This document shows, one piece after another, positions 59,483 through 64,000 of a stretch of DNA of 64,000 bases. A model generated the notes under the pieces. It was not told where the DNA came from. It did not search any database and was given only the letters and a program-made list of their open reading frames with translations. The DNA comes from Sphingomonas sp. NFR04 (GTDB lineage: Bacteria > Pseudomonadota > Alphaproteobacteria > Sphingomonadales > Sphingomonadaceae). Both the position numbers and the translations under genes were made by a program. How positions within the stretch are numbered: position 1 is the first letter of the stretch; each line of letters starts with the position of its first letter. The stretch is taken from the NCBI RefSeq assembly GCF_900114095.1, contig NZ_FORV01000007.1, positions 186,001-250,000 on the forward strand, in the 5' to 3' direction.

Positions 59483-60482
59483 GCGTCACCTCGGCGCCAG
59501 GAGAACAGGGTCGGCGATCCGGTGATCGCGGTGGGTAGACGAACCGAGCGCATCGCCTCCCCCAAGGTTCCACCTGGGCCGCGCCGGAGGGTGGCGGCAC
59601 AAGCTGGTACGGACTGCCAGCGCCGCATCCGCCGGTCGTGCAGCAACGGACAACATGGAGCGGCCGCCCCTTCCATCGCCTGCCCCTGAAGACCGGGAAG
59701 TCCGCAGCGGCAAGCCTAGGCGAGGTTCACCCTGCGCAATCTTCCGGCGAGTAGCGAAAGCGGAAACCGCTGATTTCTGCGGTTGTCTAGCGGGCTTAGC
59801 GGGTTTGAGAGGCCCAGAAACGGCGCAGGTGGCGGAGCGGGAGGAAGCCTGAGGCCGATCTCAAAGCATTGAATTTAAAGTTGAATGTGCAAGGGCGCGC
59901 AAGGGGCCCCCACATTTTTCCCCACACTTTTGCTGAGATCGCCAGATACAATCTGACACGACTGCCGACCGCTACTCGCCCAATCCCAGTCATCCCGAAC
60001 CCGTCCGGTAAAACCTGAAGGCCGCCGTTCGCTGATGCGACGGGGCATGGCTGAGTTTGGGACATTGCAGTCATTCCCAGGCCGGCGTCGAAATGGCGGC
60101 TTTCAGCCAAACATCGGACGTTTTGAGAGACTGCACATAGCTGCAGGGGACGGGCAACGCTGGCCGATAGGCGACTGTTCCTTGAGGATGAAGCTGCGGG
60201 GATAGCTGACACCCACTCGACGACGGCTGCACCAGTCGGCACATCCAAGACATCCATCGGCAAAATTTCGCTCACTAGGAGCAGACTGTCAGTTAATGAG
60301 ACAGAATTCTTGAGGTCTGGCTCGTAACGGGATGTTCGGTTGCCTATGTATAATTCCGACATGCTGGTCATTCGAAATAGGATCACTGCAGCGAGCTTCG
60401 ACCTCTTCCAGATGGAAAAGCGCTTCCCGTCAAAGCGATTACATCTAGCCAGAGTCTTATGAGAGCGTCAGGAAGGGTAGGA
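59483..60482. other. Gene-poor junction of about 1 kb
   Basis: No frame here has a family motif. Composition shifts: left of about 59750 it is as GC-rich as the rest, right of it AT content rises and stays higher to the window end. A minus-strand frame (60386-59796) is open but its product has no recognisable domain. The stretch probably marks the edge of a genomic island; no tRNA or integrase was found. Confidence 0.5.
59908..59931. repeat. Imperfect tandem repeat of a 12-mer
   Basis: CCCCACATTTTT and CCCCACACTTTT lie directly one after the other (11 of 12 identical). Such AT/C-rich repeats occur at integration or regulatory sites; here it sits where base composition changes. Confidence 0.55.
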
Positions 60483-60854
60483 ATGGCAGCTGACCTCACA
60501 TCCTATCAGCAGCGGGTCGAGGAGTGGCTCGAAGCATGCTTCCCTCCATCAGTGCGATCGGATCGGGCGGAACGTACACATCGTTTTCTGGAAGAAGCCT
60601 TGGAACTCGCCCAGGCGAATGGCTGCAGCCATGACGATGCGGTCGCGCTGGTCCATTACGTCTTCGGTCGTCAGAAGGGAGAGCCTACACAGGAAGTCGG
60701 AGGCGTGATGGTTACGCTAGCCAGCCTTTGCAGCGCCACGGGAATCCATATGGGCGAAGCCGGCGATGTCGAGCTGGCACGCAATTGGGATCGTATCGAC
60801 GCGATCCGCGCCAAGCAGCAGGCAAAACCTCACGGATCGCCGCTGCCGCAATGA
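60483..60854 (+). CDS. MazG-like nucleotide pyrophosphohydrolase
   Basis: 123 residues, all-helical. The phage/MazG-like helix HRFLEEALELAQANGCSHDDA carries the ExxE-type metal-binding acids, and GRQKGEPTQEVGGVMVTLASL supplies the second half. These proteins hydrolyse NTPs or dNTPs and are common on phages and islands. ATG 60483 has GGTAGGA before it. The stop overlaps the next micro-ORF (ATGA). Confidence 0.75.
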   Translation: MAADLTSYQQRVEEWLEACFPPSVRSDRAERTHRFLEEALELAQANGCSHDDAVALVHYVFGRQKGEPTQEVGGVMVTLASLCSATGIHMGEAGDVELARNWDRIDAIRAKQQAKPHGSPLPQ

Positions 60855-60934
60855 AAGGTGCCGCCGTCGACCTCTCGCTTGCCGGGGGCAAGCCGGTAGA
60901 TTTGCCTGATCGCCGATCTGGGGCTCAGCCTTGA
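60851..60934 (+). CDS. 27-residue micro-ORF coupled on both sides
   Basis: ATG 60851 sits in the MazG-like stop (ATGA), and its own TGA (60932-60934) contains the TTG start of the toxin-like gene (TTGA). Sequence MKGAAVDLSLAGGKPVDLPD and then RRSGAQP; no signal or membrane segment. It may be a real small protein or a coupling device that carries ribosomes to the next gene. Confidence 0.4.
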   Translation: MKGAAVDLSLAGGKPVDLPDRRSGAQP

Positions 60935-61260
60935 TCACGATTTCCTTTAAGGATGAGCCACTGCACGACACGTGCGTCGATCTTAGCCGAGCGGAAGCCG
61001 CGTACGGTAGTTTGCACGCGGCTGCGTTGGTGACGTTCATATCGGATGCCCGTGCCTTCGAGAATGTGCAGGAGCTGATCGACTTCCCCGGCCACGAAAT
61101 AAAAATTTTGGAGGACGATTCACTTTCCGTCGCGATTGGTTCAGGGTATTGCGCGGCGCTTGTCGTGGTCGCCAAGCGTTTCGATCGCGACGCAATGGGC
61201 CGTGTGATTTGGTCGAGCGTGACGAGGTTAAAGCTAGTGACAATGTCGAGGGTGCCTTGA
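60931..61260 (+). CDS. RelE/HigB-like toxin (killer-suppression type)
   Basis: 109 residues. Size, position before an ImmA-type antitoxin and the closing block RVIWSSVTRLKLVTMSRV resemble the small proteins annotated as killer-suppression protein, which share the RelE/HigB fold. TTG 60931 is the only start that fits. The stop overlaps the antitoxin start (TTGA). Toxic activity is inferred from family and operon layout only. Confidence 0.6.
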   Translation: MITISFKDEPLHDTCVDLSRAEAAYGSLHAAALVTFISDARAFENVQELIDFPGHEIKILEDDSLSVAIGSGYCAALVVVAKRFDRDAMGRVIWSSVTRLKLVTMSRVP

Positions 61261-62360
61261 AGCAAGGACAGGAATTCACTCCTGACTGGTTCTCAAAGCC
61301 TGGCGACTCGTTGCGCGCACTGATGCTTCGACAAAACCTTTCCGCCCTTGAAGTTGCCAGCCATCTGGTCGGCGGGATGATCACGCTGCGCGGCCTTCTC
61401 GATGGATCCAGCGCGGTCGATAGAGAGCATGCTACCGCACTCGCTGGGGCGGTCGGCGGCACCATGTCATTCTGGCTCAAGCGGCAAGAGCAGTACGAAT
61501 CAGCGCTGGAACGAGCCGTTGATCGCGCCACGGCAGTGGAAGCCGACGATTGGCTCCTTCTTCCCGTCCCCGGCGAAAAGCCCAGAGGTCGTCTGACATC
61601 TGAAAAGCGCCGAGACGAAGTGCGTCGGCGCCTGCGATTCTTCAACGTCGGCACCATGGATGCGTGGCAGGCCCGTTACGGGAAGATCTGCACCAGCACG
61701 CTGTTCCGCACGTCTGCGGCTTTTGATTCGGCCGATGGCGCTGTGCTCATGTGGCTGCGCGATGGCGAATTGAGTTCTGATCTCGTATCCACTAAGCCGT
61801 GGAATGCTGGCAACTTGCAGGATCGTCTTGATACGATCCGCAAGCTCTCAAAGCTGAAGCGCCCCGAAGCGTTCTTGCCCAAGCTCAAGGAGTTGTGCGG
61901 CGAAGCTGGCGTGGCTGTCGTCGCGAAGAAAGCGCCGTCAGGATGTCGGGCTTCCGGCGCAAGTCGATTTGTTGCCCCTGACAAGGCGATGATCCTACTC
62001 AGCTTCCGCGGCCGTTCCGATGATACGTTCTGGTTCACGGTGTTCCACGAGATCGGCCATCTAATTCTGCACGGCGCCAAGACGTTCGTCGATTCGGAAA
62101 TGGGCAATAACGACGTGGACGAGAGCGAACGCGAAGCAAATGAGTTCGCGTCTGACCTCATCGTGCCTCCGGCGCGTAAGGAAGAATTTCGGGAGCTGCC
62201 GGCCGAAAAGTACGATGTCACGCGTTTTAGCGTGTCAATTGGTGTATCACCTGGACTGACCGTTGGTCAGATGCAGCACCGCGCTATGATCAAACCCGAT
62301 CAGCTCAATTATCTGAAGCGCCGCTGGCAATGGGACGAACTGGCAGAGGTGATGGACTGA
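61257..62360 (+). CDS. XRE-ImmA/IrrE metallopeptidase-type antitoxin
   Basis: 367 residues. Residues about 15-75 form a HigA-like helix-turn-helix (LRALMLRQNLSALEVASHLVGG and GGTMSFWLKRQ). The C-terminal domain has the zinc peptidase motif FHEIGHLILHG with the third-ligand helix ESEREANEFASDLIVP. GAGGG lies six bases ahead of TTG 61257. Proteins of this plan act as antitoxins or as regulators that cleave a repressor. Confidence 0.8.
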   Translation: MKQGQEFTPDWFSKPGDSLRALMLRQNLSALEVASHLVGGMITLRGLLDGSSAVDREHATALAGAVGGTMSFWLKRQEQYESALERAVDRATAVEADDWLLLPVPGEKPRGRLTSEKRRDEVRRRLRFFNVGTMDAWQARYGKICTSTLFRTSAAFDSADGAVLMWLRDGELSSDLVSTKPWNAGNLQDRLDTIRKLSKLKRPEAFLPKLKELCGEAGVAVVAKKAPSGCRASGASRFVAPDKAMILLSFRGRSDDTFWFTVFHEIGHLILHGAKTFVDSEMGNNDVDESEREANEFASDLIVPPARKEEFRELPAEKYDVTRFSVSIGVSPGLTVGQMQHRAMIKPDQLNYLKRRWQWDELAEVMD

Positions 62361-62377: not shown

Positions 62378-63292
62378 TCAGCCCAAGTAGTGCACAAAAC
62401 TTCTCGGGCTCTTTTGCCAGTTACACAGCGCGTCTTCCATGACCGCCATCCCGACCTTCAATCGGACGTCCAGTACGTCCAGCACCTGCTGTACTGCCTG
62501 ATGACGAGTACCGCTGGTTCGCGACCCGTCGATGAGGAGGCGCGCGCCATTTCCCGGACCGGTCGCGCCCTGGATATATGCTGAGCCCGCTTTGATCGGC
62601 GCAAGCCCGTAACGGCCGATCAGCGAGAGGTAGTCGAACTTTGCCAGGCGGCCGAACGAATTAATCGCGAGGCGCTGGTACAGATAGTCGAAGATGGTGT
62701 GCGGGTTGTTGCCTGCGGCAACGACAGCCTCCGCGAAGAAGGCCGCATGTCCTGCCGGCCCGATCCATGCCAGATAGTCTGAAACAGCACGTTGCATCGG
62801 CCGTTTCGCCGTCGGACGCAGGCTCTCGTACTTGCGGTGATTCCCGAAGTTGCCGCCGACGTTCATCCAGTTGGCAGTGAGCCAGTCGTTGAAGGCGGTG
62901 GGATTGGCGGAGACGGTTGGCCAGTCCCAGATACCTGCACCAAGCTGACCGTAGACGTCCTGAAGGCGACGCCATCGGGAGTCGGGCCGGCGGGCAAAGT
63001 GCGTCATCAGGAAGATGAGCCAGCCGGCCTCATCAACATTGCCTTGCTGCATGTGAAAGGCGACCGCCCGTTCGGCATCGAAGGAGGCGTGGTTTGGATC
63101 GGCCCGATTTGCTGCAATCCCGCCGCGCTGGACCATCCGATAGTAATCCTCACGCCGCAGGCTGGCGATGAACTGATAGGCCAGCGTTTCTATAGTCTTG
63201 TCGTCCGGCAGACCCTTAAGTCCTTGGGCAGCTTTGGCAGCTTTGAGTTCAGCGACGAGGCGTTGATGTTCTGCATTCCGTGACGGCCACAT
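62378..63292 (-). CDS. Alpha-glutamyl/putrescinyl thymine pyrophosphorylase, clade 3-like
   Basis: 304 residues, soluble. The blocks AGWLIFLMTHFARRPDSRW, LGAGIWDW, GGNFGNHRKYESL, AVSDYLAWIGPAGH and FDYLSLIGRYG match what I recall of the aGPT-Pplase3 family, helix-hairpin DNA-glycosylase-like proteins predicted to install or exchange modified thymine in DNA. GAGGAT lies ten bases ahead of ATG 63292; the ThyA-like stop is 14 bases upstream, so both genes form an operon. Family call is from memory of sequence pattern, not a search. Confidence 0.7.
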   Translation of the reverse strand: MWPSRNAEHQRLVAELKAAKAAQGLKGLPDDKTIETLAYQFIASLRREDYYRMVQRGGIAANRADPNHASFDAERAVAFHMQQGNVDEAGWLIFLMTHFARRPDSRWRRLQDVYGQLGAGIWDWPTVSANPTAFNDWLTANWMNVGGNFGNHRKYESLRPTAKRPMQRAVSDYLAWIGPAGHAAFFAEAVVAAGNNPHTIFDYLYQRLAINSFGRLAKFDYLSLIGRYGLAPIKAGSAYIQGATGPGNGARLLIDGSRTSGTRHQAVQQVLDVLDVRLKVGMAVMEDALCNWQKSPRSFVHYLG

Positions 63293-63306
63293 TGGTAATT
63301 CGATCC

Positions 63307-64000
63307 TCAGGCTGCTTGGGGCTCGCCGGCGTCGGGCGCGCGGCTCTTAAGATGAAGTCGGCCATCCAGATATGGGCCATAGGAATTGCAGGCGAGTTCA
63401 GCCTTCAGCTCTTTCAAACGATTGGGATAGTCGGCTACCCATTCCCGCGCCCAAAAAGCCTGGAGTAGACGAACGATATCCGCCCAGTACGGGTCGTCGA
63501 TCTCGTCTGCTGCCATGAGATTTTCACCAGCCCGCAGCCGACGCTCGATATCTAGGAAGCGAGCGACCATGTCGAACGGATTGCCCGCTGGCATCGGCGG
63601 CATTTCGCGGGTCTGCTGGAAGCCCTCAACGACGTAGGCGTTCATGTCATCCAGCTTGTCTTCGTAAACATGCATGCTGCCGACATACTGGTGGTATTCA
63701 CCCATCTCGACGCCCAGCCGCCTCGCCATCATCTCCTGCAACATGGTGAAGCAAAACACGTCGTGGGGCAGGCCAAAAAAGGCATCGTTCGAGCGCAGTG
63801 TGGCGGACATATGCAAGTGGTTATCACGCAGGTGGAACTGCATTGTGGTCGTGCAGGGGATTTCCTTATGCCGTGTGGTGATGTCCTCGGCGTTGAACAG
63901 TTGGATTACTGCTCGCCGGGATCCGGGCTTGTCGGTCAGCAGCTTGTGGATGCTGTCGAACTGGTTAATGCCTTCACGCAGAGAGAGAAGCCGGGGGCCG
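63307..64000 (-). CDS. Thymidylate-synthase/dUMP-hydroxymethylase homologue (5' cut by window)
   Basis: The frame stays open to base 64000, so the N-terminus is outside. Catalytic Cys is in EIPCTTTMQFHLRDN (codon 63855-63853); substrate Asn region is ATLRSNDAFFGLPHDVF; GVEMGEYHQYVGSMHVYED matches the ThyA His-containing H-x-Y block. The VGEFIH of standard ThyA is replaced by MGEYHQ, and the C-terminus is divergent and about 100 residues longer than usual after that block, as in phage-type hydroxymethylating relatives. Co-directional with the thymine pyrophosphorylase-like gene. Confidence 0.8.
   Translation of the reverse strand, partial: GPRLLSLREGINQFDSIHKLLTDKPGSRRAVIQLFNAEDITTRHKEIPCTTTMQFHLRDNHLHMSATLRSNDAFFGLPHDVFCFTMLQEMMARRLGVEMGEYHQYVGSMHVYEDKLDDMNAYVVEGFQQTREMPPMPAGNPFDMVARFLDIERRLRAGENLMAADEIDDPYWADIVRLLQAFWAREWVADYPNRLKELKAELACNSYGPYLDGRLHLKSRAPDAGEPQAA

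Follow-up and report, generated by a model that had tools for sequence, protein, structure and literature searches.

What does a second thymidylate synthase-like gene do on a bacterial chromosome when it is placed directly in front of a gene of the aGPT-Pplase3 family? The question is raised by the right edge of a 64,000-nucleotide stretch of Sphingomonas sp. NFR04 (hereafter the window; contig NZ_FORV01000007.1, positions 186,001 to 250,000), where the two genes lie 14 bases apart on the minus strand with the thymidylate synthase homologue first. An earlier note, made from the sequence alone, had taken the pair for a possible thymine-hypermodification system. We find instead that the thymidylate synthase (TS)-family protein is very probably a cytosine-type hydroxymethylase and, with a probability of a little under 0.6, read the pair as the modification arm of a horizontally moving defence module of four to five genes, whose other arm would be an abortive toxin–antitoxin (TA) pair resembling PD-lambda-2. 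The genes concerned are:

60459..60854, plus strand: MazG-like all-alpha nucleotide pyrophosphohydrolase candidate, 131 aa; accessory gene of one module variant
60931..61260, plus strand: HigB-like (RelE-type) toxin candidate, 109 aa, TTG start; from family and position
61257..62360, plus strand: helix-turn-helix (HTH; HigA-like) plus M78 (ImmA/IrrE) zinc metalloprotease, antitoxin or sensor candidate; PF06114
62378..63292, minus strand: aGPT-Pplase3/ADDT-type amine or amino-acid transferase candidate, 304 aa; PF18746, PF18724
63307..64296, minus strand: MilA-like predicted deoxycytidylate 5-hydroxymethylase (HMase) of the TS superfamily, 329 aa; from the MilA match and residues

The HMase gene is cut by the window edge at 64000, its 5' 296 bases lying outside (whole gene, L005:3307-4296). 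The stop codon of the HigB-like gene overlaps the likely start of the M78 gene (TTGA); the longest open reading frame (ORF) of the latter runs from 61149, and its likely start is 61257. Neither the HigB-like ORF that opens at 60931 nor the tie between the M78 protein and the pair figured in the earlier note. The protein families, the cytosine-type active site, the linkage within the sampled subfamily and the defence-gene neighbours of the E. coli copies that were read are established by sequence or fold.

The thymidylate synthase homologue

The HMase matches PF00303, the TS family, and its closest PDB sequences are two entries of the CMP 5-hydroxymethylase MilA (5b6d, 5jnh; 154 bits, E 3.6e-44); the best thymidylate synthase in the same search reaches 68 bits. 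Residues were counted over 108 homologous rows, which include near-duplicates of the same loci from two collections and exclude two of 110 HMase loci with best ORFs under 230 residues (L046, 56 aa; L074, 198 aa). The catalytic Cys, the altered substrate blocks and the 14-base gap remarked on earlier were all seen, the Cys (C148 in the window enzyme) being kept in 108/108. At the base-reading position, E. coli Asn177, every homologue carries Asp (D179 in the window enzyme); likewise Thr stands at His147 and Ser at MilA Ala176 in all 108, the window enzyme included. Arg takes the place of MilA Lys133 in 88/108, again including the window enzyme, and an acidic residue lies three positions before the Cys in 101/108 (E145 in the window).

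These positions have known consequences. According to PMC8670742, Asp in place of Asn177 changes the substrate from dUMP to dCMP, and contigs with and without modification are told apart best by positions 177 and 147. PMC6400193 assigns the activation of water during hydroxymethylation to the acidic residue three places ahead of the Cys, and the recognition of cytosine to Asp179. The double exchange A176S/K133R turns the CMP preference of MilA into a dCMP preference (PMC5175136). By this residue pattern, with the ribose-selecting residues in the deoxy state, conversion of dCMP to 5-hydroxymethyl-dCMP is the most likely reaction.

Two other assignments were rejected. A housekeeping thymidylate synthase is contradicted by a best NCBIfam TS score of 90.6, far below the equivalog cut-off of 174.55, by Asp and Thr at positions 177 and 147, and by another thyA elsewhere in the 4.77-Mb genome (18 contigs). 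This separate ThyA is encoded on another contig, adjoins a DHFR-like ORF (judged by eye) and passes the NCBIfam TS cut-offs that the window protein fails; the HMase gene is thus not the only thyA of the genome, and the earlier view that it is no housekeeping enzyme holds. A MilA-type preference for CMP was rejected because Ser and Arg replace Ala176 and Lys133.

A tree of 37 rows (every third module locus plus L005), whose bootstrap had not yet converged, places four phage genes that share the cytosine signature with MilA and the module enzymes; ThyA and the PaMx11 enzyme, both on long branches, fall outside with 88/97 support. One of the four phage genes (ATCCB) adjoins an annotated beta-glucosyltransferase. 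In a few loci the HMase (L034, L074, L120) or the M78 protein (L067) comes in two pieces, which may represent frameshifts, insertions, decay or assembly errors.

The transferase candidate and its linked genes

That the 304-aa protein belongs to aGPT-Pplase3, as first proposed from its residue pattern, was borne out by a profile search: PF18746 matches at E 1.5e-117 (392 bits, against a Pfam gathering cut-off of 25), and PF18724, ADDT or 'Amino acid:DNA transferase', at E 6.6e-72 (242 bits, against 26.2). The AlphaFold2 model (pLDDT 96.1) is mostly helical. Its closest fold, among the solved structures passed to a second aligner, is the 5-PmdU glycinyltransferase PUGT of phage PaMx11 (222 aligned residues, root-mean-square deviation (rmsd) 4.4 Å), at a Z of 10.8 that lies below the value of about 13 advised for helical proteins and may reflect a common helical arrangement. 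The queuosine-5'-monophosphate salvage enzyme DUF2419 (Z 8.7) and then helix-hairpin-helix glycosylases come next. Foldseek returned nothing from the PDB at E <= 0.001; in a viral library it found a mycobacteriophage ADDT protein (E 4.6e-5). Because PaMx11 gp46 (PUGT) itself scores as ADDT by sequence (E 1.6e-27), the kinship of the two proteins has independent support. Direct sequence comparisons were less productive, with a best E of 0.46 against PDB sequences, nothing useful among PHROGs, and an hhalign probability of 3.4% between the aGPT profile and the single PUGT sequence; the stretch aligned in the last case includes a C-terminal E..x.CxW motif that is present in 109/110 aGPT proteins. 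On these family and fold matches, the protein probably transfers an amine or an amino acid. PUGT we take to act at the level of DNA.

The family is rare: PF18746 occurs in 7/396 genomes of the order, at 8 loci, and in 4/398 genomes of a phylum sample. In all 8 order loci the HMase and aGPT genes face an XRE-M78 protease gene, which is preceded by a HigB-like gene in 7/8 (in L017 the contig ends) and, before that, by a MazG-like gene in 6/8. One genome (G232) has the whole five-gene module twice on a single contig, as divergent copies (L015, L016). A scan of 84,980 species, one genome each, gave 117 aGPT relatives, distributed by record title over several proteobacterial classes, Bacteroidota, Chloroflexi, Planctomycetes, Acidobacteria, Actinobacteria, Myxococcota and Verrucomicrobia. 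The best 80 of these 117, 23 loci from a viral collection (IMG/VR) and the order loci made up a set of 111 loci, or 91 non-redundant loci after those with aGPT proteins at least 95% identical had been merged. Partner profiles were built from the first seven or eight loci, which match by construction.

Within the sampled subfamily the linkage is near-universal. Among the 91 non-redundant loci, the HMase is found in 90, the M78 gene in 89 and the HigB-like gene in 86; in each of the six loci short of a core gene, the contig breaks off on the side where that gene would lie. Of the 85 complete loci, 83 have the two pairs convergent and two have the TA genes on the aGPT strand; the median distance between the aGPT and M78 genes is 2 bases, and it exceeds 60 bases in no more than 6/85. 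Chance neighbourhood was rejected on these linkage counts and tight gaps. The distance matrices of the four proteins correlate over the 85 loci (Mantel r 0.74-0.89; reached by 0/999 permutations).

What does the facing pair encode? The M78 protein matches PF06114 (E 1.8e-11), HExxH is present in 106/106 M78 homologues of at least 300 aa, and its HTH resembles HigA (TIGR02607, E 3.8e-5), at 23.5 bits under a curated cut-off of 47.7. Its best PADLOC model is PD-Lambda-2_B, with E 1.2e-17 for the window protein and 8.9e-24 for that of L015. PD-lambda-2 is an abortive system of E. coli in which a HigB-like gene and an XRE-peptidase gene are joined by a third component (PMC9519451). No conserved neighbour cluster of the module was recognised as that third, P4-antitoxin-related component, for which no dedicated search was made. 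The small HigB-like protein is weakly tied to HigB by profile: one of 35 family members matches PF05015, HigB-like_toxin (E 1.6e-4), and the member of L061 matches phrog_3066, 'toxin of TA system' (E 3.2e-4); PADLOC gave no match for the window protein or three relatives tried. From these matches and the shared gene order, an abortive toxin arm appears rather likely, in which the small HigB-like protein would be the toxin.

In the order sample, the eight strongest matches of the M78 profile (549-644 bits) are the eight aGPT loci, seven of which had built the profile, so that this result is circular. The next matches (up to 246 bits) are four relatives, three of them with a HigB-like gene upstream.

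The accessory position varies. The MazG-like gene, in 33/91 non-redundant loci, has no Pfam match, and its profile (A4) matches the pyrophosphatase 4qgp at E 0.001; among PHROGs its strong matches are of no known function, the MazG-like phrog_715 reaching only 0.12. A UDG-like gene of about 265 aa (such as L061:9213-9998), absent from the window, occurs in 30/91 loci, lies between HMase and aGPT in 26/85 complete loci, and is found together with the MazG-like gene in 0/91. Members tried had no Pfam or PHROG match, and the profile found nothing among PDB sequences. Judged from its model, this protein has a fold of the uracil-DNA glycosylase (UDG) superfamily: the family 4 UDG 4zby aligns at Z 14.4 (181 residues, rmsd 3.3; Foldseek E 4.7e-5), and UdgX and TDG are also similar. 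Brig1, a defence glycosylase of UDG fold, excises alpha-glucosyl-hydroxymethylcytosine from T4 DNA (PMC11078745), which offers a precedent for glycosylase action on a substituted cytosine. A DUF4031-type cluster lies near 11 loci (two members checked with Pfam), its genes adjoining the HMase in L063, L064, L076 and L020:14443-14835, and a NUDIX cluster lies near 3 (one member checked).

The earlier note had also pointed to the MazG-like companion, as a possible remover of competing dTTP. The companion itself stands, weakly, on the match to 4qgp; removal of dTTP is not the natural reading, since a cytosine-type HMase makes dCTP or hydroxymethyl-dCTP the expected target. MazG-family dCTP pyrophosphatases exist.

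A probable defence module and its alternatives

The surroundings of the module are those of mobile DNA, in keeping with the island proposed at the outset. To the right of the window, L005:11993-18478 encodes a MobA/MobL relaxase-helicase, TraD, a HEPN-nucleotidyltransferase protein and ArdC (by Pfam), which suggests an integrative or conjugative element (ICE) running off the contig end; a search of the genus for the empty insertion site gave partial matches only. By tblastn, the aGPT protein has 8 relatives among 72,556 plasmids and none in 50,697 isolated-phage records. The module is carried by an Agrobacterium plasmid and by a Pantoea phage-plasmid that is P1-like by its annotated neighbours and has an adjoining Mrr-type nuclease; Mrr-type nucleases lie near three further loci. 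From their neighbours, judged by eye, some of the 23 loci of the viral collection resemble prophages, and recombinase-like clusters, also judged by eye, occur near 21 and 14 loci.

The module is also present in E. coli. A four-gene query is matched by 231/5,426 complete genomes, 226 of them over at least 80% of its length, always on the chromosome and mostly at 60-80% identity. The three regions that were read (L166-L168, two of which are the same island) each contain all four core genes, a MazG-like gene and a nearby type I restriction–modification system; two have a dGTPase-family gene and SIR2, and the third an integrase at tRNA-Leu. Two of the E. coli HMases carry the cytosine signature. 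In the RefSeq rows listed, the HMase is named 'thymidylate synthase', and the HigB-like ORF is unannotated in 2/3 regions. Among flanking proteins compared with PADLOC (87 of 137 listed), 227 families were matched at 1e-10; the 25 families listed in the tally, which has no control, hold at most three proteins each and include IetA, cytosine methylases and reverse transcriptases. The restriction, dGTPase-family and SIR2 genes beside the E. coli copies argue for the anti-phage role suggested earlier, and that the module serves defence against phages or other elements has good odds.

How might the two arms work together? In the first arm, the TS-family enzyme would use methylene-tetrahydrofolate to convert dCMP to 5-hydroxymethyl-dCMP, and the aGPT-Pplase3/ADDT protein would exchange the 5-hydroxyl for an amine, which could be an amino acid or a polyamine; the resulting hypermodified cytosine would exist as a nucleotide or within DNA. 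The accessory protein would handle by-products, either as a MazG-like enzyme returning dCTP or 5-substituted dCTP to the monophosphate or as a UDG-fold glycosylase. The convergent second arm would consist of the HigB-like toxin and the XRE-M78 protease, in the manner of PD-lambda-2. In a healthy cell, the XRE-M78 protein would sense the modified cytosine as a signal that 'all is well'; a phage that takes over the dCTP pool or destroys host DNA would abolish the signal and free the toxin, causing abortive infection. The exact products, and the choice between nucleotide pool and DNA, are points that we infer. That modified cytosine gates the toxin is a tentative proposal, and the complete scheme, in which a hypermodified cytosine (nucleotide or DNA mark) serves cellular immunity as the antitoxin signal and its loss or alteration releases the HigB-type toxin through XRE-M78, is more doubtful still.

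Besides the modest fold match to PUGT and the Foldseek result, several observations tell against a defence module of two coupled arms. Two aGPT peptide patterns served to select most of the loci, and the linkage holds for the subfamily concerned; the matrix correlation shows joint inheritance in a test from which shared host ancestry has not been removed. A solitary, divergent aGPT-Pplase3 protein (L169:1651-2559, 302 aa, PF18746 E 6.5e-54, C-terminal motif M-E-A-A-I-C-H-W-Q-K) has no HMase, M78 or HigB partner within 12 kb and sits among core-type genes by eye (trpB-, prfA- and lysS-like), so the family is not always part of the module; it is one of the four carriers in the phylum sample, another of which (G718) has all four core genes. 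Conversely, the HMase and aGPT genes are absent from the 3.4-4.1 kb read around the four M78 relatives of the order sample, so the TA-like pair also occurs alone. The window HigB-like protein matches neither PF05015 nor a PHROG toxin, its profile (A8) has no credible PDB match, and PADLOC holds no model for the HMase–aGPT pair. The HMase signature is itself uneven: the Lys of MilA at position 133 is kept in 20/108, the acid before the Cys is replaced in 7/108 (six Ser, one Pro), Gly takes the place of the Ser/Thr of T4 dCMP hydroxymethylase, two before Tyr, in 101/108 including the window enzyme (Ser in 4), and the second phosphate-binding Arg, kept in the window as R128, is Gln or Lys in 34/108. 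Finally, neither a hydroxymethyl kinase nor a hydroxymethyl-dCMP kinase was found in the module, which leaves a missing step for modification at the DNA level or for activation before amine transfer; T4 needs a dedicated hydroxymethyl-dCMP kinase.

This missing kinase bears in opposite ways on two alternatives, both unlikely. The modification arm might shield a mobile element (ICE, prophage, plasmid or phage-plasmid) from host restriction, with the TA arm as a plain addiction module. The mobilization genes right of the window, the plasmid and phage-plasmid copies, the integrase at the E. coli tRNA-Leu, the recombinase-like clusters and the IMG/VR loci would all fit. But no kinase was found in the module to bring hydroxymethyl-dCMP into DNA, no aGPT relative appears in the isolated-phage records, where one would look for such protection, the arms are found together in different phyla with a median gap of 2 bases, and the E. 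coli copies lie beside unrelated defence genes. Alternatively, the product might be a free modified nucleotide that leaves no mark on DNA and serves as an alarm or antimetabolite, made in response to a rise of dCMP during infection, that either acts on the M78 protease or poisons phage DNA synthesis. Here the lack of a kinase is no obstacle, the MazG-like and NUDIX genes would suit a pool-based function, and the aGPT fold is also near DUF2419, an enzyme of queuosine-5'-monophosphate; yet the closest fold belongs to a transferase that takes its name from 5-PmdU, and a UDG-superfamily fold, which normally acts on DNA, is encoded in 30/91 loci.

Synthesis of hydroxymethyl-dUMP for thymine hypermodification, the chemistry first proposed for this locus, is now very improbable. 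It draws on the Pfam name of the partner, on TS-family membership and on the PaMx11 relatives of both proteins, but the base-reading residue is Asp, as in MilA, in every homologue counted, where PaMx11 gp51 has Asn, and the HMUDK of PaMx11 (gp50, PF18723 E 5.6e-41) has no counterpart in the operon. None of the five module proteins encoded here matched PF18723; a genome-wide search was also negative, but its controls were equally silent. Nor did a Pfam scan of 12 ORFs between 64000 and the contig end, 3 of them matchless, reveal the DNA kinase, glycosyltransferase or amide-ligase genes that had been looked for there. Mildiomycin-like nucleoside biosynthesis or plain nucleotide metabolism is hardly credible: MilA is the closest characterised enzyme, but its Ala176 and Lys133 are Ser and Arg here, the M78 and HigB-like linkage is constant, and none of the 45 largest neighbour clusters listed looks biosynthetic by eye.

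Known systems and surroundings of the window

The module shares elements with several characterised systems. Thymidine hypermodification in PaMx11 (gp51 HMase, gp50 HMUDK, gp46 PUGT) likewise uses a TS-family enzyme with an acid three before the Cys and an ADDT transferase of related fold; unlike it, the module has Asp in place of Asn, no HMUDK in the operon and a TA-like partner, and resides on bacterial chromosomes and mobile elements. MilA and T4 dCMP hydroxymethylase have the same cytosine-type site (Asp, acid three before the Cys), and MilA also the Thr after the Cys; Ser and Arg, pointing to dCMP rather than CMP, set the module enzyme apart from MilA, and Gly for Ser94 sets it apart from the T4 enzyme. 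With PD-lambda-2 the module has the order of HigB-like and XRE-M78 peptidase genes in common; the third component of that system was not recognised here, though no search was aimed at it, and the module is coupled instead to two nucleotide- or base-modifying genes.

DefensePredictor (Science 2026, PMC13092281) lists aGPT-Pplase and MazG among the domains of predicted, untested defence systems, names UDG in the legend of its Fig. 6F, and includes systems with TS or a 5-hmdU kinase among those validated in E. coli. The sections consulted give no composition of an aGPT system, cytosine chemistry, HigB/M78 linkage or distribution; a figure of the article may already draw the same module. In the open-licence full-text literature searched, we found neither the cytosine assignment, the TA coupling, the three accessory variants and the E. 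coli prevalence nor a functional test of the module. A 2013 survey by Iyer et al. in NAR reportedly defined aGPT-Pplase clades and proposed cellular self/non-self uses for them; it is reportedly thymine-directed and is not known to treat TA coupling.

The module is widespread, with at least 91 non-redundant loci in many phyla in addition to its E. coli copies. Should the defence reading be correct, it would represent a cytosine branch of nucleotide or DNA hypermodification inside bacteria that is tied to TA immunity, a cellular cytosine counterpart of phage thymidine hypermodification, and a 'modification addiction' that dispenses with a restriction enzyme. E. coli would then offer a system in which chemistry and gating could be tested at once, and TS-family genes with Asp at position 177 would be misnamed in databases.

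Some minor features of the locus may be added. A promoter scan of the stretch gave 4 sites against 1.3 expected, which is no evidence of function; one promoter-like site on the minus strand lies 48-76 bases 5' of the HMase start. Just past the module, the product of a gene at L005:5226-6932 (65226-66932) is 568 aa long and contains a RelA/SpoT-type domain (E 2.9e-6), and further right a 412-aa ORF without family matches adjoins a HigA-type antitoxin gene. The G+C content per kb is 0.55-0.60 in the module, lower than the 0.62-0.68 of the stretch further right.

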